This document shows, in pieces, positions 2,880-27,929 of a stretch of DNA of 27,949 nt. The DNA is from a virus. The stretch is from IMG/VR virus record IMGVR_UViG_3300044622_000109, positions 1-27,949 of that record. One strand, given 5' to 3'. A program made the translations under genes and the position numbers. The notes under the pieces were generated by a model that did not search any database, had not been told where the DNA came from, and saw only the letters and a list, made by a program, of their open reading frames with translations. The stretch's first letter is position 1, and each line of letters begins with the position of its first letter.

Positions 2880-3037
2880 CAGTTGCCGCCTGTGATGATG
2901 CGGTTGAGCTTGGCCTGCTTGGCATCCCATAACAGAGCGTCACGAATCGAGCGGTCCTGTTCGGTCATTGGTGGGAAGAGAACGAGCAGAGTCGCCCCGA
3001 TCCCGATGGCTGCGGCGATAGCGATCAGAAGTTGCAT
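2879..3037 (-). CDS. 52-aa membrane microprotein
   Basis: This short gene starts at ATG 3037 with a clear AAGGGGG site 7 nt upstream, and its TGA (2881-2879) overlaps the next ATG by one base. The product starts MQLLIAIAAAIGIGATLLVL, a single N-terminal transmembrane helix, followed by a PP turn and a charged amphipathic segment (MTEQDRSIRDALLWDAKQAK). I do not recognise a family. It is the first convincing gene of the leftward early operon, directly downstream of the intergenic control region. It may act with the neighbouring 97-aa membrane protein, since the two are translationally coupled and have the same plan of one membrane helix followed by a charged helix. Confidence 0.65.
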   Translation of the reverse strand: MQLLIAIAAAIGIGATLLVLFPPMTEQDRSIRDALLWDAKQAKLNRIITGGN

Positions 3038-3083
3038 GTGTTGCCCCCTTGGTTGGTGTTCTGGTGATGGTCAGAGCTGACGA

Positions 3084-3101
3084 ACGCCAGGGGGCTGGCG
3101 T
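3084..3101. repeat. Hairpin in the early-operon leader (7-bp stem, 4-nt loop)
   Basis: The arms ACGCCAG and CTGGCGT pair perfectly around a GGGG loop (CCCC on the leftward transcript). The hairpin lies 47 nt before the ATG of the first early gene. There is no T tract after it in either direction, so it is not a standard terminator. It could be an operator, a leader RNA structure or chance. Confidence 0.4.
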
Positions 3102-3244
3102 CCGACAGATGAGCTATTCGAGAAAAATCCGCGTGGAGTGTGCCCGATTGGGCTATCAAGTCCTCGGATGTCTGACATACTTGTTTCACGACCGCCCCCT
3201 TAGTGGTCTTGAGGTATCTCCACCAAGTCGTGCGTTGCAGTCGT

Positions 3245-3260
3245 CCTAGATTCATCTAGG
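3245..3260. repeat. Inverted repeat 1 upstream of integrase (candidate operator)
   Basis: The perfect repeat CCTAGAT-TC-ATCTAGG has 7-bp arms and a 2-bp spacer. It directly abuts inverted repeat 2, and its right arm overlaps the possible -10 of the integrase promoter. This geometry suits a dimeric DNA-binding protein. No protein that would bind it is identified here. Confidence 0.5.
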
Positions 3261-3280
3261 GTTATTCGAGTGGGAATAAC
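3261..3280. repeat. Inverted repeat 2 upstream of integrase (candidate operator)
   Basis: The arms GTTATTC and GAATAAC are exact complements separated by 6 bp (GAGTGG), making a 20-bp element immediately after inverted repeat 1. The arm sequences differ from repeat 1, so the two are not copies of one operator. They may bind different proteins or serve as integrase arm or accessory sites. Confidence 0.5.
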
Positions 3281-3296
3281 GAACGGAGATTCACGA

Positions 3297-3319
3297 AAGT
3301 CAGTTCGTATCACTGACTT
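3297..3319. repeat. Inverted repeat 3: candidate attP core or operator (8-bp arms, 7-bp spacer)
   Basis: The arms AAGTCAGT (3297-3304) and ACTGACTT (3312-3319) pair exactly around the asymmetric spacer TCGTATC. Tyrosine recombinases recombine at inverted core sites flanking a 6-8 bp overlap, which is what this looks like, and it lies 76 bp before the integrase start. A repressor operator is equally possible. No host sequence is available to test identity with attB. Confidence 0.4.
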
Positions 3320-3379
3320 CAAAGGATCTCGGTTCGACCACTACTGCAACATCAACTGGGTGCCGATGCCTTGAACATT

Positions 3380-3392
3380 CCTTTACGAAAGG
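3380..3392 (+). promoter_or_regulatory. Small hairpin covering the integrase ribosome binding site
   Basis: CCTTT-ACG-AAAGG is a perfect 5-bp stem with a 3-nt loop. Its right arm is the AAAGG Shine-Dalgarno of the integrase. The spacing from AAAGG is 3 nt to ATG 3396 but 9 nt to ATG 3402, which favours the second ATG as the working start. The hairpin could lower integrase translation. Confidence 0.4.
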
Positions 3393-3395
3393 TTC

Positions 3396-4265
3396 ATGGC
3401 TATGTGTAGTCTCTCGATCACAGAGAGTCAACTTTTGACTCGGCGTGTCGCAAAAGTGGGAACAATCGACCCGACCGAGATGGAGCAAAGGCTCTTCGAC
3501 CGCTACGCGGCCAGGGGCTGGTCCAAGCAGGTGCTTATCAACGACAGGGCAACGCTTCGGAGGGTCTGTGCCAGAACTGGCGACCCCGATCTGGTCACCC
3601 TTGAGGACATGGAATCCGTTGTCATGAAGGCAACTTCGCAAGGTTCTCGTGCGAATTATGTTGCGCGAATCAAGTCCATCTTCGCTACTCTGCGTGAACT
3701 TGAACTCACAACCAACACCGCCGATCTCAAGCTCGCCAAGGTCCGCAAGCCTCGCGGTCTACCTCGACCCATCTCAGAGGCTCAAGCCCAGATTCTGCTC
3801 ACCCAGGCCAAAGAGCCTTACCGCTCCTGGTTCGTGCTGGGATGCTATGCCGGCCTCCGGGCGATGGAGATCTCAGGGCTAACTGGTGCCGACCTTGAGC
3901 AAGGACCCGAAGGGTATGTCCTGCGCATTCGGGGGAAGGGTGGCACCGATCTCACCATTCCGGCCCATCCAGAAGTGGTCAGGGTCATCAAAGAGGCCAA
4001 CACGCTTGGCCGGCTTTACTTCCTCAACCCCAACAAGATCAGCTCCTACGCCTGCAAGGAGATGAAGCGGCTGGGTGTGCCGATGAAGTACCACTCACTC
4101 CGTCACTATTTCGCCACAAGCGCTCTGAAGGCCTCTGGTGGGGATCTGTTGGTCGTGCGTGACTTGTTGCGCCATCAATCGGTGGCAACGACTCAGGTCT
4201 ACGCCCAGCTCGGCGAAGGTCGCACTCGCTCAGTCATCGAACTGCTCAACGTCCAAGACTCTTAG
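3396..4265 (+). CDS. int: Tyrosine recombinase / phage integrase
   Basis: The 289-aa protein has an N-terminal helical core-binding domain (about residues 22-115) and a C-terminal catalytic domain. The catalytic set is visible: R155 (GLRAMEIS), K182 (RGKGGT), H233-x-x-R236 (HSLRHYFAT), H260 (LLRHQS) and the nucleophile Y269 (TTQVYAQ). It would insert and excise the phage genome at an attachment site. At 289 aa it is slightly short for the family because the N-terminal arm-binding domain is small or absent. It is the only plus-strand gene, convergent with the long late operon and divergent from the early operon. ATG 3402 is an alternative start with better ribosome-site spacing; an in-frame stop at 3372 rules out a longer form. 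Confidence 0.95.
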   Translation: MAMCSLSITESQLLTRRVAKVGTIDPTEMEQRLFDRYAARGWSKQVLINDRATLRRVCARTGDPDLVTLEDMESVVMKATSQGSRANYVARIKSIFATLRELELTTNTADLKLAKVRKPRGLPRPISEAQAQILLTQAKEPYRSWFVLGCYAGLRAMEISGLTGADLEQGPEGYVLRIRGKGGTDLTIPAHPEVVRVIKEANTLGRLYFLNPNKISSYACKEMKRLGVPMKYHSLRHYFATSALKASGGDLLVVRDLLRHQSVATTQVYAQLGEGRTRSVIELLNVQDS

Positions 4266-4274
4266 AACGACGAA

Positions 4275-4310
4275 GAAGCCCCCGACACCATTGCTGGTGT
4301 CGGGGGCTTC
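4275..4310. terminator. Strong hairpin terminator between convergent integrase and late operon
   Basis: Two 16-bp arms (GAAGCCCCCGACACCA and its exact complement) surround a TTGC loop. The element lies 10 bp after the integrase stop and 31 bp after the dNMP kinase stop. Only the leftward transcript has a partly T-rich flank (TTCTTCGTCGTT). Actinobacterial terminators often lack a good T tract, so it probably works in both directions. Confidence 0.85.
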
Positions 4311-7147: not shown

Positions 7148-7441
7148 TTACTTGGTGAGCAGGTTGACGAAGATGCCAACGGAAGCGCCAAGAAGCGCGG
7201 CAGCGCCGGCGGTACGCCAGACGGTGCGCTCAATGGCACGGATGCGGTGCTCGTGGTCATCCACGCTCTTGGTTGCGTGGGTCATCGTCACTGTGACGAC
7301 GTCGAGCTTGTTGTCAATACTGGCGAGAATCTGACGGACCTCAGAGGCCTCTTCTCGTGTTTCGTTTCGGAACTCACTCAAGTCTCGCCAGACCTCCTTT
7401 GTCGTGATTTTGAACTCTCTGTGGTCTAAGTCCTCAGCCAT
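7148..7441 (-). CDS. Coiled-coil protein with C-terminal membrane helix (XhlA-like; lysis module)
   Basis: The 97-aa protein has a long charged helical N-terminal part (residues 8-70, with heptad-like ASEVRQILASIDNKLDVV) and a single hydrophobic C-terminal segment (about 76-95, TAGAAALLGASVGIFVNLL) ending in TK. This plan matches the haemolysin XhlA-like proteins that sit with holins and endolysins in many Gram-positive phages. The start ATG 7441 overlaps the stop of the 46-aa gene (TAATG). It lies directly upstream of the endolysin. It could be a holin partner, an antiholin, or a membrane attachment protein; sequence alone does not decide. Confidence 0.7.
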   Translation of the reverse strand: MAEDLDHREFKITTKEVWRDLSEFRNETREEASEVRQILASIDNKLDVVTVTMTHATKSVDDHEHRIRAIERTVWRTAGAAALLGASVGIFVNLLTK

Positions 7442-7581
7442 TACGAATCGGCCTCCGTATTACCTGAAATCAGTGCGGCGATGGTCGCCTTGAGCACTGC
7501 TATCTCCTGGGCTTGAGTGCCGATGGTCTCTCGCATAGATGCGAGGACGTCGTCGATTTTGATTTTGTGGTCTTCGTTCAT
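7441..7581 (-). CDS. 46-aa coiled-coil microprotein
   Basis: ATG 7581 overlaps the stop of the 1027-aa tail gene (ATGA) and has GGAGG 7 nt upstream. The product begins MNEDHKIKIDDVLASMRE and has a heptad helix (IGTQAQEIAVLKATIAALI, residues 20-38) likely to oligomerise, with no membrane segment. The function is not known. Its place between the tail tip gene with its C-terminal S74 chaperone and the lysis genes could make it a tail accessory or a lysis regulator. The longer open reading frame in this frame is ignored because it overlaps the tail gene and lacks a ribosome site. Confidence 0.6.
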   Translation of the reverse strand: MNEDHKIKIDDVLASMRETIGTQAQEIAVLKATIAALISGNTEADS

Positions 7582-10500
7582 GCGCTTGCCTCCAAGGTCT
7601 TGACGCGAGCTGTTAGCTCTTGCACTGCCTTGACTAGCGGCGCGATGAACTGCTCGTAGGAAAGGGATTGGGTAGATTCTGGGTCGTTGATGTCGTCCTG
7701 GACCCAACCAGCAAAGTCTTCAACTCCAGAAGCATCGAGCGCTTCTTTGACTTCCTGTGCGATGAAGCCGTAGTGAAGTCGCTGTCCTGGGTGCTCGACC
7801 ATTTCGAAGATTGGCTTGCCTTCAGGAGACTCGCCAACGATGGTGGCCTCGCCATTTTCATCAAGGGCAACTTCCTGACGACCAACCTTCCAGCGGTACT
7901 TCACTGGGCGAAGTGACTCGATGAAATCAAGCCCAAGCGGTGAAGTTGAGATGTCAGTCTTTAGGCGCGCATCAGAGGTTGAGATCGTGGTGTTGTTAGC
8001 GAACAAGCGCTGCCAACGACGGTTCGCGAAAGCGCCGGCTGATGTTGCTTGGCCGAGGCTGTAGGTGTTGTCCGAGTTTGGTGACCAGTCTGAGTCAACG
8101 CCGTAACCAGACGAAATCGAATGCAGCAGGATGGTGTTGTAATAGGCGAACTCACAGCGGTTCGCGCTAGTGCCTTGTGCGGTGACTTTTCCTGATCCAG
8201 TTGTCAGGATGTTGCCAGATGACTGGAAACCGTTCGCAGAGATTGCGCGGTCTGTAATCATGACGTATGTGTTGCTGCCGCTGGTTGGGTAAAGCACCGT
8301 CGTGCCGTCGAAGTTCCTAATGAACCCCGACGAAGTGAAGTTCCAACCAGCGCTTTCAGAGCCAATGTAGCCCGATGTCGCTCGAACTGCGCCGGTGAAG
8401 GTTCCGCTGGCTGCGTTGAAAGCAACCGATGCCGTGATGGTTCCAGCGGTGATGTTGTTGGCTGAGATGGTGCCGGCGTAGACGTAGCTCGATGAAATCT
8501 GTGTCGCCGTAATCGAGCCGGCTTCGATCTTGGATGCGTTGATTGCACCTGCTTGGATCTTGTCGGCTGTGATGGCGTTGGCTGAGATGTCTCCAGCCTG
8601 AATGGCTAGAGCTGCGATAGTTCCAGCCGTTACCGCTCCAGCGGCGAGCTTGCCAGCCACAACTGCGTTGGCTGCGATCTGGTTGGCACCGATTGCGTTG
8701 GCTGCGATCTTGGCTTGGACAACTGCACCGTCGACCAACTTGGTGGCATCGACTGATCCGCTTTGCAGGGCTGTCGCGCTCACGACTGCGCCATTGAATG
8801 GCCAAGTCGTCCACTGGTTAGCAATAAGGTCTGTGTCGACTAGACGCGCAACCAAGACTGAGGTCTGAGCGGTTGCAGCCGAAGCCACGCCGCTCTTGTT
8901 GTAGGCAACGAACTTGACGTAGTAGGTCGTCCCATAGACAAGGTCGGAGAAGACAATGGTGTCAGCGCCTGTCATTCGTCCCTTGTAGGTGCCAGCACCT
9001 GGGGTGAAGTTGTTGGTTGTCGAGACGTGGACGGCGACGTAGGAGAAGTCGGCAGGCATTGCTGAGCCTGTGCTGCTCAATCCATTCCATGTCACCGAGA
9101 TGGCGCCGAGGCGACTTGTGGCAGTTGGAGCGCTCGGAGTCAGGCCAGTTGCAGAGGTAATGTTGGAAGCGGTGAGGACGTACTCATTGGAAGCCGTTGA
9201 ACGGTTGCCTGAGTTGTCGACTGCAAAGACTCGGAAGCGGTAAGAAGTAGCAACGGTTAAGCCGCTGATCTTGGCGCTGTTGGTGTCGGCGTTGGCCTCG
9301 AACTCCCAGGCGTCTGTGCTTCCAGTTCGGATCTGTACCTCGTAGAAGTCAAGGTCATCCAGTGCGGTTGCGTCTGCGTTTGTGGTTGGCGCAGTCCATG
9401 TCAATGAGACCGAAGCGTAAGGGTCGACTCCTTCAACGTAGGCAGCGGTCGATCCTGTCAAAGAAGTTGGTGGAGATGGCGCGACAGTGTCTTCGGTAAC
9501 AGTCACGTCAACAGTTGGGGCGATGAGGTTTCCATTGCCGAGAGCAACTGAGCCAGAACTGATCGCTGCGAGCTTGCGGGAGGTGCGAATCTCGTTCTCG
9601 TAGATGCGGTCGCCAAGGGTTGCACTTGCAGTCAGAGATCCGCCAGACATGCTGACAGTGATCTGACGAACGCGTACACGCTCCAAGCCAGCCGCTGTTG
9701 CGGTGTAGACATAGTCGCCAACGTTGAAGTCTTCCAGTGGGCGAGGAGCATCGTCAGCAAGAGTCAGGCCGACAGTGAGCTGGCGAGCAGTGGTGGCAAG
9801 GTTGCCCAGGTAAGTGTCACCCAAGGCGTTGGCCGTTGCGGTGTCGTCAGTTCCTGAAGCGGTGAAAGATGTTTCGATGCGTCCGTAGGCAGAGACTCCA
9901 GCGGAGTTGGTGCGCTCGACCATGAGACCGCCGTCACCTTCAACCAGTGCAACAGTTGCCACTCTGTCAGCGCTTCGCTGCTCAGGGGCTTCGGTGAGGT
10001 TCTGTCCGTAGCGAAGGACGATGGGGTTCAGTCCTGTGGTGCGGTCTGTTCCGATTCCATCACTATTGGTGGCCTTGATGCTGGTCCCGATGGTCTGAAC
10101 TTCGACAATGCCGTACTCCTGAAGGCTGCGAAGGACGGAGAGGATCGTGTTGCGTGCTGGGTACTCCTGAGTCACTGTCTCTGACCAGGCAGCGCTGTTG
10201 GCGTCAGTAGTTGTGCTGAAGTCGCCACAGTTCAAGCCAGTCAAAGCACCGCGCCCTTGCGCTGCATCTATCAGAGTGCGCAGGATGTAGCCGGCGTTCT
10301 TGTTGTTAAAGTAGCGAGTCAGGCTTCCAGATGAAACTCCGCCGTCAGGATAGGCCAGGGCTGTTTCAAGGCGTGAGAGGACTCCTCGGCCAGTGACCGA
10401 GATGAAGCCGTCAGCGTTAGCTCTGTCGCGGTTGATGTTGGTGATGACGTAGCGAGTGTTGGTGTACTCGTTGCCTGTGGCGTCAAAGACTGCGACTTCA

Positions 10501-11545: not shown

Positions 11546-14373
11546 CGGTCGTAGGCTCCAATCAGTGCAAGGCGGGTGAGTGTGTTGGAGACTGTGACGC
11601 TGGTTGGTTCAGCGATTGGGTTGTAGTTGTTAATCACGACACCAGGTTGCGGTTGGCTGCCTGACGTGCCTGCGTTAGTTCCGGAAGTGCGGGAGTTGAC
11701 GGTTGGTGACTTCGGCGCTGTTGCGGTTCCGGTCGTTGTGTACTTTGTGACACCGATGAGGTCTTTGAGCCAGCTTGGAGCGTTGATCTTTCCGATCTTT
11801 GCGATTTCCTTGGCAAGAGTTGCGGCGACTCCGGCAATCTTTCCCTCGATTGAAGTGAGATCGTCTGCGAGGGATTTGACAACCTTCTGAGACTCAGCGA
11901 TGGCTGGGCCGTAGACAGCGTCTGAGACTGACTTGCCCAAGTCCTTGGCTTCCTTCTCGAAGAGGCCTTGGAGTTGGTTGATCTCTGTGATTGCGCCTTT
12001 GCCACCGTCTAGGACGGCAGCGGCTATCTGTGAGCCTGTCTCGACTCCGCTGTTGAGAATCTCTTGAAGGCTGGTCTGATTCAGACCTGCGCTCTGTAGG
12101 GCTTTGATCTGTTGGAAGAAGCCGGTTGCAGCGGTCACACGCTTCTTGAAGTCCGCGATCACTCGCTGAGACGTAACAAGCGAGCCGTTCTGAGCATCGT
12201 TGAGATCAGTCTGCGCCGTGGTTGCTGCGCGCTGCGCATCGGCTAAGTCACGCTCAGCCTTGAGCAAGCGCTCTCGTGCAGTTGCTGCTTGAGTCGAGGA
12301 GATGCCGTACTTAGTCACGGCATCGCTCATTGCTTTGTTCGCAAGAACAATTCTGCCCTGACTATCGGCGAGCTTGTCGTTGGCGTCGGCAAGTGACTCC
12401 TGAAGTTTAGGAAGATCCGCCTCCTGAATGGAGAAGCCTGCGACCGATGTGAACGAGCGGAAACTGTCAACGATTCCCTTCGCGAAGTCTGATGCAGTTT
12501 CCTGCAAGTCCTTCAGGTTGTCCTTGGCTGCCTTGAACGTGTCGCGAAGAACGTCACGAGTCTTTGCAAGGCCCAGGATCTTCTTCTGTGCATCGTCAAC
12601 GGCTTTGATGAGAACCTTGGAACCAGTTTTCTTGATGTCTTCAGCGATTTTTGCAAAGGCGCTTCGGATCTGGTCTTGAGTTCCCTGCACGCCCTTAATG
12701 AACCCGAGTCCGACGTTCTTGCCGATTTCTTGGAAGACCTTGGATGGTGAGGCGATGCCCAGCGCCTTCTTGACGAAGGATGGCAACTTGTCAGTGACGG
12801 TGCTCTTAATGGTATTGATGAGAATGGAGGCCATTGACTTGATGCCGTTGATGAGGCCAGTCATGATGTTCTTGCCGACGTTGAGCATCAGCGATGGGAG
12901 TCTGAGGTAGATGTTGAGCATTCGGCTTGGGATCGTCTTCATGAACCCCAAGAGTCCGTTCAGTCCTGCGACGAAGGCGTTTTTGAGTCCGCCGACTGCG
13001 CCCTTGCCAAGGTTGATGAGGGCAAGGCCTGCCTTGCGGAAGATGCCGAGGATGCCAATGTTCCAGAAGAACTGGAATGCACCAGTGACGGCTTGAATGA
13101 AGCCACTGAAGATTGACTTGACACCGTTCCAGACTTTTTTGAAGTCTCCTGTGAAGACGCCTGCGAAGACGTTGAAGACGCCAGTGATGACCTTGAGTGC
13201 GCCCTTGATGAAGTTGATCGTGCCCTTGAGTGCTCCGATGACTGCATTGCCGATGATCTTGAGGAAGAACTCTGCAACAGGTCGCACAATCGGAAGGACT
13301 GCGGCGAAGGCAGGGACGAGCTGGTTCATGATGATGTCGCCGATTTCCTTGAAAGCTGGACCGACGATGGCGAAGATCTGCTTGCCGAAGTCGCCCACGA
13401 TCTGGATCAGCGGCGTGATGCTTGCGCCGATAGATGTCAGCGCATCCTTGAAGACTTGAACCTTCGCGCTGGTCTTGCCTGACTCATCACCGAATGACTT
13501 GAAGAAGGCGATGATTGGCTGGGCGGCGGTCTTGATTGTCTCGAAGGCTGGCTTGAGGTTGTTAGCCAGGAGAGTCGTCAACTTAGTGACGGCAGGAAGG
13601 AGGGCACTGCCGACTTCGTTTCGGATGTCGACGAAGTTCTTGTTGAGGATTCTGGTCTGGTTGGCGAATCCGTCAGCGGTACGAGCCGCGTCACCTTGTG
13701 CATCCGTGGTCTTGGCAAGGATGAGGGACTGCGCTGCAAGCACCTTGTTGGCTGGGGTAAGTGCGGTCTTGACGCTACTGATTAGTCCAAGGCGCAAAGC
13801 CTCAGCACGCATTGAAGCGTCATCGAGGAGCACACCGTACTTTCGGATCGGCTCGGACTCACCACGAAGAGCAGCACCAAGAGCGGTGATGGCTTCGTCG
13901 GTGCTGGTGTTATAGAAGGAAGACAGGTCGCCAGCAAGTGCTGTGAGTTGAGTTGAGAATCCACCCAGCTCTTTGCCAGTCAGCCCTGCGCTCTTTCCGA
14001 ATACACCGAAAGTCGCAGAGGCATCGAGTGCCTCTTGCTTGGTCAGGAGGATGTTGCGCTTGGAGTCTTCTGCGAAGGCGACGACTGACTTGGTTGCGTC
14101 ACCAAAGATGACCTTGGTCTTGGAGAGAGTCTCAGCGAGGTCGGATGCTCCAGTGATTGCTCCCTTGAAGAAGCCAGCGAGGGCAGCGGTGCCGGCAACA
14201 GCGGCGAGAGGTCCGGCAACGGACTTGAAGGTTCCAAGTAATCCAGAGCCGAACTTCTTGCCACTTGCTGCACCAGCCGCGCCCATCTGTGGGCCGACTT
14301 GACCGTTGAGAGCTGTGCCGAAGCCTCTGGCCGACGGAATGATCTGGAGTGTTGCGTATCCGACGTTGGCCAT
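11542..14373 (-). CDS. Tape measure protein
   Basis: The 943-aa protein has the composition of a tape measure: alanine/glycine-rich, mostly helical, with hydrophobic stretches near the N terminus (PLAAVAGTAALAGFFKGAI) and in the middle (about residues 340-520, many GA/F/I runs). The motif GIASPSKVFQEIGKNVGLGF at roughly 545-565 is a hallmark of siphovirus tape measures. Its length sets tail length; at about 1.5 angstrom per residue, 943 residues suggest a tail near 140 nm, an estimate from the known relation. Coiled-coil segments (AARERLLKAERDLADAQRAA) follow. The ATG at 14373 overlaps the stop of the frameshifted chaperone (TAATG). It is the longest gene but one in the window. Confidence 0.95.
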   Translation of the reverse strand: MANVGYATLQIIPSARGFGTALNGQVGPQMGAAGAASGKKFGSGLLGTFKSVAGPLAAVAGTAALAGFFKGAITGASDLAETLSKTKVIFGDATKSVVAFAEDSKRNILLTKQEALDASATFGVFGKSAGLTGKELGGFSTQLTALAGDLSSFYNTSTDEAITALGAALRGESEPIRKYGVLLDDASMRAEALRLGLISSVKTALTPANKVLAAQSLILAKTTDAQGDAARTADGFANQTRILNKNFVDIRNEVGSALLPAVTKLTTLLANNLKPAFETIKTAAQPIIAFFKSFGDESGKTSAKVQVFKDALTSIGASITPLIQIVGDFGKQIFAIVGPAFKEIGDIIMNQLVPAFAAVLPIVRPVAEFFLKIIGNAVIGALKGTINFIKGALKVITGVFNVFAGVFTGDFKKVWNGVKSIFSGFIQAVTGAFQFFWNIGILGIFRKAGLALINLGKGAVGGLKNAFVAGLNGLLGFMKTIPSRMLNIYLRLPSLMLNVGKNIMTGLINGIKSMASILINTIKSTVTDKLPSFVKKALGIASPSKVFQEIGKNVGLGFIKGVQGTQDQIRSAFAKIAEDIKKTGSKVLIKAVDDAQKKILGLAKTRDVLRDTFKAAKDNLKDLQETASDFAKGIVDSFRSFTSVAGFSIQEADLPKLQESLADANDKLADSQGRIVLANKAMSDAVTKYGISSTQAATARERLLKAERDLADAQRAATTAQTDLNDAQNGSLVTSQRVIADFKKRVTAATGFFQQIKALQSAGLNQTSLQEILNSGVETGSQIAAAVLDGGKGAITEINQLQGLFEKEAKDLGKSVSDAVYGPAIAESQKVVKSLADDLTSIEGKIAGVAATLAKEIAKIGKINAPSWLKDLIGVTKYTTTGTATAPKSPTVNSRTSGTNAGTSGSQPQPGVVINNYNPIAEPTSVTVSNTLTRLALIGAYDR

Positions 14374-23182: not shown

Positions 23183-24250
23183 CTACTTAGCGCCAGCGCT
23201 TGCTGGGTTGAGGGTGTTTGAATAGAAGCTGAGGTTGCGAGCAAGTCGCTCGTCATCAGGTGAAAGTTCGAGTGCGTCGGTGCCGTGTAGGAAGGCGACG
23301 TAGCCAAGCCCTAGATTCCAAGCGGCAAGGGCGGCCAAGTCGTGAGGTTGTGGACCCCAGGCGAATGCTTCGCAGAGGTACTCAAGCGGCTTGACGGTGA
23401 TCGAGAGCGCTCGCTGTGCGGCTGCGTGGCAGCCGTTCCAGTCGCCGGTCTCGTAATAGTGCTGGGCCAGTTCAACCCATGGCTCGCGTCGATCAGGTGC
23501 CTCAGCGCATGAGCGGAGCAACCATGTTTCGCGGTCGGCCTTGTCGAGCTTGGCGAGGTAGCGCATAGACGCTGCTCGCTCAGGTCGCCATCTGGCTTTG
23601 CGAAGACTCAGGTGGCGAAGGAACTCGGCTTGGGCTTTGTCGTGCTGGCCGTGGAAATAGAGTTCGCGTGCGTAGTAGAACGCGTTCCGGTCATCGCTTT
23701 GATCTTCCTTGACAGCCAGTTCTAAGAGCGGCAAGTACTGACCACGCGACTTGGTGTTGTCGGGATGGTGATGAATCTCTAGCGGTATCCAGTCTTGGAC
23801 TTCGTTGTTGCCGACGAGAACCTCGTGGACTGGGTGCTTCCATCGGTAGCCCTTGCGAGCGTGGATCTTGTCGCCTCCATAGACGAGGCCTGGTGTGCCG
23901 TCTTCGTTCCAGCTCCATGTGTATGAATAACGTGGGCGTGTAACGGCTTTGGATACAGTCTCAAGGTGTGCGCGCCAACCAAGTTGGAGCACTTCATCCA
24001 TGTCGAGTGCAATGCAGTAGTCAACGTCTTTGGGAAGAACGTCAAGTGCTGCGTTGCGCGCCTTGTCAAAGCGCCACGGCTTGATGGTGATGGGAACGAC
24101 TGTGATTCCCAGCGACTTTGCCAGCTCGACGGTGTTATCAGTTGAGCCAGTGTCTGCAATGAGAATGACGTCTGCTTCTTTGGCGCTTTCATGCCATCGA
24201 GCGACGAACTGTTCTTCATTGAGTGCGATTGTATAAACTGCGATTTTCAT
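23183..24250 (-). CDS. GT2-family glycosyltransferase with TPR-like C terminus
   Basis: The 355-aa protein has a GT-A fold N-terminal domain (residues 1-190): IALNEE (8-13), ADTGSTDNT (32-40) and the metal-binding CIALDMDEV (79-87). The rest (about 190-355) is made of helical repeats of the TPR kind (NAFYYARELYFHGQHDKAQ, PWVELAQHYYETGDWNG). This arrangement is common in bacterial and phage glycosyltransferases that modify proteins or glycans. The sequence has no membrane segment. It lies between the fibre genes and TerS, which suggests glycosylation of a virion protein, a process known for some actinophage capsid and tail proteins, or of the host surface. The sugar is unknown. Confidence 0.88.
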   Translation of the reverse strand: MKIAVYTIALNEEQFVARWHESAKEADVILIADTGSTDNTVELAKSLGITVVPITIKPWRFDKARNAALDVLPKDVDYCIALDMDEVLQLGWRAHLETVSKAVTRPRYSYTWSWNEDGTPGLVYGGDKIHARKGYRWKHPVHEVLVGNNEVQDWIPLEIHHHPDNTKSRGQYLPLLELAVKEDQSDDRNAFYYARELYFHGQHDKAQAEFLRHLSLRKARWRPERAASMRYLAKLDKADRETWLLRSCAEAPDRREPWVELAQHYYETGDWNGCHAAAQRALSITVKPLEYLCEAFAWGPQPHDLAALAAWNLGLGYVAFLHGTDALELSPDDERLARNLSFYSNTLNPASAGAK

Positions 24251-24277: not shown

Positions 24278-24463
24278 CTACGCCTCCGGAATAATCGGGG
24301 TGGAATAAGACGCTTGCGGCGTGGAAATCGGCGTGAATTGGTCCGGCCCTGGATTCAGGTAGCGTTGATAGTCTGAGTTGGCTTCATCTTTAGGAATAAA
24401 GGAGACAGAGCCGTCTTCATTGTGTCGTTCAATAACGAAATCGTGTTCAATGTAATTTGTCAC
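24278..24463 (-). CDS. Small fibre-associated protein (61 aa)
   Basis: The product starts at GTG 24463, one base overlapping the fibre gene stop (TAGTG). It contains GSVSFIPKDEANSDYQRYLN, a short conserved pattern (IP...NSDYQ.YL) often seen in small genes directly after phage tail fibre genes. The rest is a proline/threonine-rich tail (TPISTPQASYSTPIIPEA). The role is not established. It may be a fibre subunit, a fibre chaperone or a remnant of a larger assembly protein. The position makes fibre-related function the best guess. Confidence 0.6.
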   Translation of the reverse strand: MTNYIEHDFVIERHNEDGSVSFIPKDEANSDYQRYLNPGPDQFTPISTPQASYSTPIIPEA

Positions 24464-25608
24464 TATAACTCCGCGCTAAGGTCGATTCGTCCAAGTGTTG
24501 TCTTGGTATACATGAAAGCCGCGTTTCCAGTCGTTAAACCGCTCGCAACTGTGTAGCGAAGTTCGCAACTGTTGACTTTTATGTTGCGAGCTTCCAAAGC
24601 GGTAGTTGCTATTTCATTACCAGCCGCGCCTGTAATTATGAAATCCGTCTGAGAAGAGAAGGTTACGGTTGGATTTATTCTCATTTTTGGATAAGGGAAC
24701 GCCCCAAAGCCACCAGTTGAAGCAAAGTTTTGGGCAACCATAATTGTTTGATTAGCATTACTTCCACCGGCAGAATAGTCTATTACTCGGTTGAAGTAGT
24801 ATAGACAGGCAGCATGTTCCCCTTGGATGGTGCCCCCCGCACGAGAGAAGGCGGTCGGAGTCGACCCAAGTTCGAGCTGAACTCCGGTGACCTCAAAGAA
24901 GTCGGCAGCGCCAGCGGTTCCGCTTAGGACGGAGAAGATGCGGACGCCGATTTGAGTGGCATTGCTAGGGACATTGAATGTTCCTGAATAGCGCGCCCAG
25001 CTTGTTGTGATTTGGACGTCGGGTGCGGATTCGGCATAACCAGTCCAACCTCCGAACTGTGCTGAGGCTGCTTGATTCGTTCCTGTGCCTGAGTTGATGC
25101 GAATGCTGAGGGTGTTGTTGGTGGTCGAATAATTAGCGCCTGCGCGAGCCCAAAAAGACAGCGTAATGGTTCGGCCTTGTAGCGGGATGCTAGAGGCAGT
25201 CTCTAGGGCTTGCGAAATGCCCATTGTTCCCGTCGTTGCGTTTCCCGCATTTCGTTGCACTCGTAATGCGTTCACGAGACCCGTTGGCAGAGACGATGTG
25301 ACCTGAGTGGCCGTACAAGAAGGGCCGCCTTCAAGTGTCAACAGCCAACGGTCAGCACAATAGGCTCCAGAGGTTGTGAAAGTTGTCCCACGTTGGAAGA
25401 AGTCCATCCCTCCGTTGACAACGAAGTTCTTGGCCCCTGCGTTGTAATTTGTCAAGGACAGCTCTGCATCAAGGGCGGCCTGGAGACCAGTCACGTCAGA
25501 GATCGCGAAGCCTGTGTGAGTGTGAGGACCAGTGCCGACAGGGATCCAGGTGTCCGTCTCTGCGTCGTAGACGTATGCGGGACGCGTAGTGGTGCCGATT
25601 GTTGGCAT
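24463..25608 (-). CDS. Tail fibre with carbohydrate-binding-like domain (putative receptor-binding protein)
   Basis: The 381-aa protein starts at ATG 25608 with a strong AAAGGAGG. The N terminus (YVYDAETDTWIPVGTGPHTH, then DVTGLQAALDAEL) is a typical phage fibre attachment region. From residue 60 it follows a known plan: FVVNGGMDFFQRGTTF, ADRWLL, then ITLSFWARAG, FEVTGVQLELGS, TAFSRAGGT and ACLYYFNRV. Together these form a jelly-roll domain of carbohydrate-binding-module type found at the tips of many phage fibres. It would bind host-surface sugars. The final part (about 300-381) is a separate beta-rich tip. The base composition of the last 400 bp (24463-24850) looks more AT-rich than its neighbours, which may mark a domain swap. 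Confidence 0.75.
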   Translation of the reverse strand: MPTIGTTTRPAYVYDAETDTWIPVGTGPHTHTGFAISDVTGLQAALDAELSLTNYNAGAKNFVVNGGMDFFQRGTTFTTSGAYCADRWLLTLEGGPSCTATQVTSSLPTGLVNALRVQRNAGNATTGTMGISQALETASSIPLQGRTITLSFWARAGANYSTTNNTLSIRINSGTGTNQAASAQFGGWTGYAESAPDVQITTSWARYSGTFNVPSNATQIGVRIFSVLSGTAGAADFFEVTGVQLELGSTPTAFSRAGGTIQGEHAACLYYFNRVIDYSAGGSNANQTIMVAQNFASTGGFGAFPYPKMRINPTVTFSSQTDFIITGAAGNEIATTALEARNIKVNSCELRYTVASGLTTGNAAFMYTKTTLGRIDLSAEL

Positions 25609-25668
25609 TCGGTCCTCCTTTGTTGAATTGTTGGGTTACTTACTCGGATGCGAATAACGTGCGGGGAT

Positions 25669-25905
25669 TTAGAGGACGAGCGTGTCTGCCTCTTCGGCAG
25701 TCAGTGGCTGGCCTGCGATGAGCTTGGCCTTGGCTGATGCCTTCAGCGCTGCCAGAGCTGCGGCTGCTTCTTCCTGGGCGATCTGGTCAGCCAGTGCCTG
25801 CGCTGCCATCGCTTCGCGCTCGAGGATCTCCTGCTCAGTTAGCGGGACGATTGTCTCGGTCTGTGTTTCGCAGTCGAACTCGACGCGTGTGAGGACTTCA
25901 GTCAT
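25669..25905 (-). CDS. Small helical protein in the fibre cluster (78 aa)
   Basis: The ATG at 25905 has AAGGAG 7 nt upstream. The protein begins MTEVLTRVEFDCETQTETIV and continues as an alanine/glutamate-rich helix (EQEILEREAMAAQALADQIA..., ending LTAEEADTLVL). It resembles small genes that accompany phage tail fibres, sometimes related to fibre chaperones. I see no diagnostic motif. It lies between the tandem beta-domain genes and the large fibre gene, on the same transcript, so a role in fibre assembly or attachment is the most likely one. Confidence 0.6.
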   Translation of the reverse strand: MTEVLTRVEFDCETQTETIVPLTEQEILEREAMAAQALADQIAQEEAAAALAALKASAKAKLIAGQPLTAEEADTLVL

Positions 25906-25914
25906 GGTGGCTCC

Positions 25915-26430
25915 TTATGAGTTCTTGATGCCGTAGAGGGTGGCGGTTGAGTGCTGGACGAAAGTTGAGACCTCAGGAACCAGCGTGAGGGAGGTGATGG
26001 CCGCAGTGTTAGCCCAGAGTGTTGCGTTCATGTCCATCTGAGCGTTCGACGCGTTGTTCTCAGAGACTGCATCGGTGCTGATGGACTTGTTCTGAGTCGT
26101 TGAGGCGTAGTTGGGAATGTAGATCTCAATGTTGGAGAAGGTGCTGGCCGTTGACCCTGCCGCTGTCAACGCGAGTGAGACGTAGCGAGAGGCGTAGTTG
26201 GCTGAACCTGCCGCTGTTCCAGTTCCACTCAAGTTTCGGTAGGTGTAGCCAGTTCCTGACGCATTGAGTGTGATGAAGAGGTTGTCTGCCTGTTGAGCAG
26301 AACGAGCTGAACGCCCTGACAACTTCACAACAAGGTCAGTGAATGTCTGCGGAATGTTGGTGAAGTCGATGCTCGCAGCTCCACCGGCTCCAACGGTGAC
26401 GGTGGCGATTGCTTGCATAGTTGTTGGCAT
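25915..26430 (-). CDS. Tail/receptor beta-domain protein, tandem paralogue C (171 aa)
   Basis: This is the third of three adjacent paralogues in order of transcription. Like the other two it has an early FTNIPQTFTDLVVKL block, a central Y-x-N-Y-A-S-T-T-Q-N-K segment followed by alternating small residues, and the closing TLYGIK. The protein is threonine/serine/alanine-rich and almost wholly beta, as expected for a trimeric fibre or tail-surface domain. No catalytic residues are visible. The three genes follow each other with 2-3 nt gaps, so they form one transcript with the large fibre gene downstream. A host-recognition role is inferred from position and composition. Confidence 0.7.
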   Translation of the reverse strand: MPTTMQAIATVTVGAGGAASIDFTNIPQTFTDLVVKLSGRSARSAQQADNLFITLNASGTGYTYRNLSGTGTAAGSANYASRYVSLALTAAGSTASTFSNIEIYIPNYASTTQNKSISTDAVSENNASNAQMDMNATLWANTAAITSLTLVPEVSTFVQHSTATLYGIKNS

Positions 26431-26433
26431 CGT

Positions 26434-26943
26434 CTAGGCCGCCTTTATTCCGTAGAGGGTGAAGGTTGAACCGATTGCCCAGACAGCGCCGTTGACCGGC
26501 TGAGTAGTGATCTGCGTGATCGCTGCCGTTGTTGGGATGAGTGAGACCTTGGCTTGCACATTGAACCCCACACTTGAGCCGACGAAGTTGGTGCGTGAGA
26601 TCACTGTCTTGTTGGTTGTTGTGTTGGCGTAGTTCATGAAGTTGTAGGTCTCCATCGACCATTCACCAGCATTTGAAGTGCCGGGAACGTAGCCAGCGCG
26701 GAGAGCGATCTCGGCTGTACCTCGTCCAGAGGATCTGCTTGATCCGTTGCCTTCTAAGTAGGTGCCGCTGTAGTTCGTCGTGACACTGTTGACACGGATT
26801 GCGGTGATGTCATAGGCACTGCTCACGCGAGCGGATTGGATGAGGATGAGGTCGGTGTATGTCTGCGGGATTGAAGAGAACGTGATGATGCCTGCGGTGC
26901 TAGTGAGGGTCGTCGTCGCGATTGGCTCGTATGTTGCCGGCAT
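26434..26943 (-). CDS. Tail/receptor beta-domain protein, tandem paralogue B (169 aa)
   Basis: The middle copy begins MPATYEPIATTTL and shares FSSIPQTYTDLILIQ, a YANTTTNKTVISRT block and the end TLYGIKAA with its neighbours. It differs strongly between these blocks, as expected for a surface domain under variation. There is no membrane or signal segment. Its start ATG 26943 follows the previous gene by 2 nt. It may be a fibre tip or a decoration protein. I know this FxxIPQTxxDL...LYGIK plan from phage tail-associated proteins of aquatic phages, but no precise family name can be given. Confidence 0.7.
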   Translation of the reverse strand: MPATYEPIATTTLTSTAGIITFSSIPQTYTDLILIQSARVSSAYDITAIRVNSVTTNYSGTYLEGNGSSRSSGRGTAEIALRAGYVPGTSNAGEWSMETYNFMNYANTTTNKTVISRTNFVGSSVGFNVQAKVSLIPTTAAITQITTQPVNGAVWAIGSTFTLYGIKAA

Positions 26944-26945
26944 CG

Positions 26946-27572
26946 TTAGGCCCCCTTGATTCCGTAGAGCGCGATTACAGAACCAGCGGCAAGATAGTTT
27001 CCACCAGTCAATGATGGACTCAGCGTTGTGATCGCCGCAGTTCCTGGAAGTGTTAGTGGAAGGTTGCTTGCAAAGCCGATCGTTCCGCTGCCGTTTGCGT
27101 CGTAGCCGTAGAGGGTGCGCAGAGTCTTGTTCTTGTTTGTGTTTGTGTAGTCCAGGATGTCGGTGATTGAAACACCGAAGGCAGACGCCGTTGAGGACGC
27201 CGCCGGAAGCGTTGCGATGAATGATGAATACTGGCCCGTATAGCCGTTGGCATACGTCAGATTTCCATCTCCTGAAAGTGAATGAGTAGCACTTCCAGTA
27301 GATCCTGCATTGTTGTTGTAGTTGTAGAGATACAGCGCTTCATTCGTAGCGGCCGTTAGCGAGCGAGCGAAGATTCTCAACTGTAGATGCTGGAACGTCT
27401 GCGGGATGTTTGTGAATGTCACGCTGCCAGTTGTCGTTCCGCTGATTGTGTAGCTGGCGATCGACTCATAAGAGGACGGCGAGAAGACAGGATTGCCAGC
27501 GAGCATGGACTTGTATTCCATGCGGCCAGTGACCAGCGTTCCAGGCGCGGAGAGTTTGTAGACAGGTGTCAT
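26946..27572 (-). CDS. Tail/receptor beta-domain protein, tandem paralogue A with N-terminal extension (208 aa)
   Basis: This copy is longer because of an N-terminal extension of about 35 residues (MTPVYKLSAPGTLVTGRMEYKSML) which precedes the shared domain (YESIASYTI...). The shared blocks are FTNIPQTFQHLQLRIFARS, LDYTNTNKNKTLRTL and the closing ALYGIKGA. The extension may attach the protein to the tail. It is the first of the three and follows the small 101-aa protein by 3 nt. The three paralogues differ in their middle parts, so they may bind different receptors or form a mixed trimer. Confidence 0.7.
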   Translation of the reverse strand: MTPVYKLSAPGTLVTGRMEYKSMLAGNPVFSPSSYESIASYTISGTTTGSVTFTNIPQTFQHLQLRIFARSLTAATNEALYLYNYNNNAGSTGSATHSLSGDGNLTYANGYTGQYSSFIATLPAASSTASAFGVSITDILDYTNTNKNKTLRTLYGYDANGSGTIGFASNLPLTLPGTAAITTLSPSLTGGNYLAAGSVIALYGIKGA

Positions 27573-27881: not shown

Positions 27882-27929
27882 TAGTTACGACTCCTTTGCT
27901 GTTGGTAGGAATACTCCTATTGGAGTGAG

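Follow-up and report, generated by a model that had tools for sequence, protein, structure and literature searches.

Tail fibres determine which bacteria a phage infects. In Bifidobacterium prophages, the Rin shufflon inverts receptor-binding segments, stored in one prophage, between 11-bp rix sites, and it has also been suggested that the invertase is supplied in trans (Mavrich et al. 2018, PMC6109161). Brujita, whose integrase belongs to the IntBrujita subgroup of the simple tyrosine recombinases, integrates into the host chromosome. The dif site of the Xer system consists of inverted arms around a 6-bp spacer. Integrons (IntI, attI, attC) have a site next to the gene of their tyrosine recombinase, and the cassettes adjoining that site change; phage-borne integrons have been reported (PMC9892861). 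A search of open-licence papers found no description of tail-cassette exchange at direct sites.

The locus described here lies in a linear IMG/VR contig (IMGVR_UViG_3300044622_000109); the whole 27,949-nucleotide stretch that was analysed is referred to as the window. Three inverted repeats lie upstream of a gene for an arm-less tyrosine recombinase. On balance, we favour the view that the second repeat is the site of this enzyme, that the enzyme comes from a family exchanging tail-fibre cassettes, and that the site sits in an upstream structured element.

The Rin shufflon is the nearest described system. In both, receptor-binding genes with variable C-terminal segments have an XerD-like tyrosine recombinase of the arm-less type as their neighbour, the crossover sites are short, and the host is actinobacterial, in the case of the window phage probably. 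Rin inverts its segments, whereas here the sites are direct, the spacers differ between the two ends and the alternatives are found in other genomes. The 11-bp Rin sites contrast with inverted arms around a 6-bp spacer, and the Rin recombinase is encoded at the receptor-binding genes, whereas that of the window is not at the tail locus. The several inverted site copies and alternative gene ends of a Rin or Rci shufflon are replaced in the window, an incomplete contig, by direct copies and one tail-fibre cassette. The Brujita integrase has the same two-domain fold, length and lack of an arm-binding domain, but is only about 25% identical in the structural alignment, and no host integration was found here. 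The resemblance to integrons lies in the site beside the recombinase gene, the changing adjacent cassettes and the presence of IntI among the structural matches; the sites here are not folded attC but short repeats in double-stranded form, and no cassette arrays were seen. The geometry of dif recurs here, but phage-borne, with many different spacers and among tail genes.

The recombinase and its relatives

The recombinase gene (3396–4265, + strand; Pfam PF00589, phrog_1) encodes 289 amino acids and is located between the dNMP kinase gene and the early genes. It runs against the other recognised genes, which are all on the − strand. A hairpin with a 16-bp stem and a 4-nt loop (4275–4310) separates the recombinase gene from the convergent dNMP kinase gene and is probably a two-way terminator. 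R155, H233/R236, H260 and Y269 are invariant across 27 aligned recombinase sequences. The AlphaFold model (pLDDT 85) shows two domains only, after a disordered N-terminus, and its best match in the PDB is the Brujita integrase (5vfz), followed by XerA and the integron integrase. The catalytic residues, together with a core-binding domain without an arm-binding domain, place the enzyme among the simple (arm-less) tyrosine recombinases. XerC and XerD are among the best family models, yet score well below cut-off; the integron-integrase model TIGR02249 gives 44.7 bits against a cut-off of 265, so the enzyme is not classed with the integron integrases.

Two contigs, L002 and L183, represent the same phage as the window (99.9% identity). 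The terminase is about 66% identical to those of Arthrobacter and Curtobacterium phages. Searching viral contigs with the recombinase matched 212 relatives, of which 80 were kept; same phage excepted, these are 44–57% identical. Relatives in isolated phages reach about 27–31%, best among the matches listed, and matches in 395 Actinomycete genomes are only about 29–34% identical. None of the 84,980 bacterial and archaeal genomes searched yielded a close relative.

In most viral loci, the recombinase gene adjoins variable tail-fibre genes and lies directly downstream of the tail genes (T-type). The window, L020, L004, L062 and L070 have it beside early genes (E-type). The T-type sequences form one clade in the tree, save one poorly filled row, and the E-type sequences fall outside it. 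One contig (L181; 3300010885_016774) carries two related recombinases, tail-side at 7161–7928 (+) and early-gene-side at 11778–12845 (−), and the sites of the two have the half-site GAGTGTGTAA in common.

The repeats and their fold

Repeat 1 (3245–3260) reads CCTAGAT-TC-ATCTAGG (7/2/7), repeat 2 (3261–3280, + strand) GTTATTC-GAGTGG-GAATAAC (7/6/7), and repeat 3 (3297–3319) AAGTCAGT-TCGTATC-ACTGACTT (8/7/8). All three are perfect, as the sequence-only reading had reported, and their clustering does exceed chance: none of 2000 simulated 146-bp stretches of local composition held three repeats. Of shuffled windows, 1% have three non-overlapping repeats within 80 bp somewhere along their length. 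The window itself has 33 perfect repeats whose arms are at least 7 and whose spacers are at most 8, against a mean of 14.5 in Markov shuffles. The window contains no further exact copy of the full 20-bp repeat 2 site or of repeat 3.

Two features had been overlooked. Repeat 3 sits in the middle of an imperfect palindrome of 57 bp (3280–3336, 19 of 25 pairs), and positions 3234–3244 pair with 3340–3350 (GTTGCAGTCGT/ACTACTGCAAC). Because this closing stem encloses the repeats, the 117 bp from 3234 to 3350 fold as one closed, compact element with three hairpins. Relative to shuffles, the RNA fold of 3236–3400 has a z-score of −4.7 on the + strand and −6.2 on the − strand, and the DNA fold of 3234–3350 one of −5.5.

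Nearby, a 76-residue ORF (3025–3255, − strand) has no homologues and its ATG lies inside repeat 1; it is probably not a gene. An imperfect inverted repeat, CTGACGAACGCCAG/CTGGCGTCCGACAG (3077–3108; 86% complementary, 4-nt gap), lies upstream of the early genes.

Long closing stems around two or three hairpins, unrelated in sequence, also stand upstream of the other early-located genes (z = −5.9 in L020, −5.5 in L181, −7.6 in L004, −6.6 in L070 and −6.3 in L062), and in L020, L181 and L004, the site forms one of the hairpins. Very stable nested folds thus precede six early-located recombinase genes, with z about −5 to −8, as one would see if the recombinase were controlled by a structured RNA leader or attenuator, with the hairpins working in the mRNA and not as DNA sites. 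We regard this as improbable: both strands fold equally well, a search of Rfam up to E 5 gives no match, the site is accompanied by just one short hairpin at the tail-linked genes, and the site sequences reappear as cassette junctions. The element may act as an RNA leader, a cruciform or a folded recombination site. Under the favoured reading of repeat 2 as a recombinase site, the other repeats would make up a structured element that either controls the recombinase or presents repeat 2 to it.

The proposed core site

T-type genes have an inverted repeat of the form arm-TC-N6-GA-arm just upstream; examples are AACACTC-CATTGG-GAGTGTG, AACACTC-CAAAGG-GAGTGTG, GGAACACTC-CACAGA-GAGTTAG and GGAACAATC-CACACC-GAACCT. 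Most tail-linked loci have this form no more than 140 bp ahead of the recombinase gene, where 0.046 would be expected per 120 bp. Repeat 2, directly upstream of the window gene, has this form, as does AACACTC-GAGTGG-GAGTGA at the same place in L020. There, TC-GAGTGG-GA is identical to the window and both arms have changed in step (TTATTC-GAGTGG-GAATAA in the window, ACACTC-GAGTGG-GAGTGA in L020). L004 and the early site of L181 likewise have the spacer GTGTCC in common, with different arms. Since L020 keeps the spacer and its flanks while the arms change together, repeat 2 is a better candidate for the core than repeat 3, to which the sequence-only reading had assigned that role. The adjacent enzyme would bind and cross over at 3261–3280, with inverted arms and a 6-bp overlap.

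Arms that change around a kept spacer are in line with a recombinase core; the reverse would be seen in a repressor operator. This bears on the earlier suggestion of a lysogeny control element, in which repressor or activator operators, most likely repeat 3, would occupy a divergent control region. The pattern AAGTCAG-N9/10-CTGACTT of the palindrome region recurs upstream of the L062 recombinase gene, and among the loci compared, only the window phage and L062 have it, both upstream of the recombinase; the repeat 3 arms at L062 hint at a shared regulator. However, the region yielded no repressor gene and no sigma-70-like promoter, although a promoter overlapping the first two repeats had been suspected, and we consider operators very improbable. 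Conservation differs between the repeats. Repeat 1 is not kept in relatives, which is what had been named as counting against the earlier proposal, but the form of repeat 2 persists, and both L062 and L020 have sequences resembling repeat 3. What is supported of that proposal is a recombination-site region beside a tyrosine recombinase; the repeat 3 core, the attP/attB pairing and the lysogeny control found no support.

Possible integration into a host

The same region had been read as attP with a host attB. In its ordinary form, this reading has the enzyme integrate the phage at repeat 2 (or 3), attB lie outside the searched genomes, and the tail-linked relatives be a specialised offshoot. 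The nearest solved structure, that of the Brujita integrase, belongs to a genuine integrase (PMC8138268). Early-located enzymes stand outside the tail-linked clade, with L181 having one of each, and the site is single copy in both L020 and L004, with no extra copies found there. The single-copy sites keep the attP reading alive and count against exchange, since L020 and L004 have early-located enzymes like that of the window. On the other side, the query that found 212 relatives in viral contigs found no close one in the 84,980 cellular genomes, and hence no prophage with this enzyme there. A search for attB with 3236–3396 gave chance-level matches only in the 395 Actinomycete genomes. Neither does an attP predict site-like repeats around the tail-fibre gene of the window. 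We hold the attP reading to be unlikely, while giving it real weight.

Three candidates for integration sites were discarded. Recurrent 19/21 matches in a DUF59/SufT-like gene come from one conserved codon stretch, and the similarity, confined to short words, ends there. Another gene has an exact match of 22 bp, which is no more than chance predicts for 395 genomes. An attP at a tRNA end finds no tRNA in the window or its relatives.

Cassette junctions in tail-linked relatives

In aligned T-type contigs, one site marks precisely where a constant recombinase side meets unrelated cassettes. In 31 contig pairs, near-identical recombinase regions are joined to different upstream cassettes; mean identity is 0.97–1.00 rightwards, starting 4 bp before the site, and median identity is 0.24–0.33 leftwards past 10 bp from the site. 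Cassette variation in the tail-linked relatives thus has its breakpoints at the site.

The same site appears as a junction of variable left and right parts in phages without an adjacent recombinase. In 12 such tail loci, the same 17-mer, GGAACAATCCACACCGA, joins different parts on both sides, with left/right identities of 0.42/0.98 (L197/L198), 0.89/0.27 (L197/L208) and 0.21/1.00 (L200/L208). Among these loci (L191–L208), the exact 17-mer is kept at the end of a small tail ORF.

At its other end, the variable stretch has a short island within the tail-fibre gene that encodes GGT(I/L/V)QGE; the DNA of this island, CAAGGAGA, is identical in 12 otherwise unrelated cassettes. Part of the DNA likeness on this side is due to the protein motif, identity being 0.61 at third positions versus 0.86 at the first two. 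Comparison of the two ends shows tail-side and recombinase-side junctions to be alike in the arms and unlike in the 6-bp spacer (CAAGGA versus CACACC and others). Repeats of GGAACAATCCA in L118 and L147 were considered as marks of tandem cassettes and dropped, as the upstream copies lie inside tail-fibre genes.

These junctions suggest that tail-linked members of the family swap receptor-binding tail-fibre cassettes at such sites. Recombination at each junction would be limited to its counterpart in the genome of another phage, so that the cassette would be swapped and not deleted. Tentatively, we see here a natural form of recombinase-mediated cassette exchange, in which shared arms with incompatible 6-bp spacers would let co-infecting phages swap host-recognition cassettes without deletion; the gene for the enzyme could lie elsewhere than at the tail locus, or another phage could provide the enzyme. 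Such junctions could equally arise where short conserved ends undergo homologous recombination. If the exchange reading is true, a dedicated cassette-swapping enzyme explains the hypervariable tail ends of environmental phages, the annotation of many genes as integrases says little for a temperate life style, and engineered two-site cassette exchange in biotechnology has a natural counterpart.

The tail region of the window

The window recombinase is far from the tail genes. Its tail-fibre gene, a putative receptor-binding cassette (24463–25608, − strand; phrog_4492 tail fiber, E 5.6e-35), is bracketed by two site-like sequences in direct orientation. S2 (25639–25658, − strand; GTTATTC-GCATCC-GAGTAAG) lies just upstream of the gene, after the ORF 25669–25905. 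S1' (24291–24308, − strand; TTATTC-CACCCC-GATTAT) lies at the 3' end of the cassette, at the end of a small ORF (24278–24463, − strand) whose homologues have a junction site at their 3' end; this is the position of the recombinase-side site in the relatives. The counterpart of their tail-side junction is CACCATC-CAAGGG-GAACATG (24815–24840, − strand), which encodes GGTIQGE within the tail-fibre gene.

The pattern TTATTC-N6-GA has four matches in the window against 0.22 expected. They are repeat 2, here termed S3, on both strands, S2 (25644–25657) and S1' (24295–24308). By a neutral arm score, the case is weaker. S2 scores 12/14, the best in the window after S3, where shuffles contain a mean of 0.43 matches scoring at least 11. 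S1' scores 10/14, which on sequence alone is chance level (shuffle mean 4.25); beyond sequence, the case for it rests on its position. The link between S3 and the tail sites is therefore only likely. The spacers of S3, S2 and S1' (GAGTGG, GCATCC and CACCCC) all differ, so this genome holds no textbook partner pair. No contig was found that shares the flanks of the window around another cassette, and other contigs with its S1' end belong to the same phage only. We infer that the enzyme, now in the early region, would act at a distance on the sites around its own tail-fibre gene.

Between tail genes, TCACTC-CAATAG-GAGTAT (27911–27928, − strand) resembles the recombinase-side site of L268 (CACTC-TAATAG-GAGTC). 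L183 continues the tail region of the window rightwards; a long collagen-like fibre gene with repeated GPTGA/GIQG (L183:1–1671) lies upstream of the window's tail genes. A gene resembling β-1,4-glycosyltransferases (phrog_13126; 23183–24250) separates the tail-fibre cassette from the small terminase gene. The tail genes at 25915–26430, 26434–26943 and 26946–27572 are diverged paralogues arranged in tandem, and all three end in a YGIK motif.
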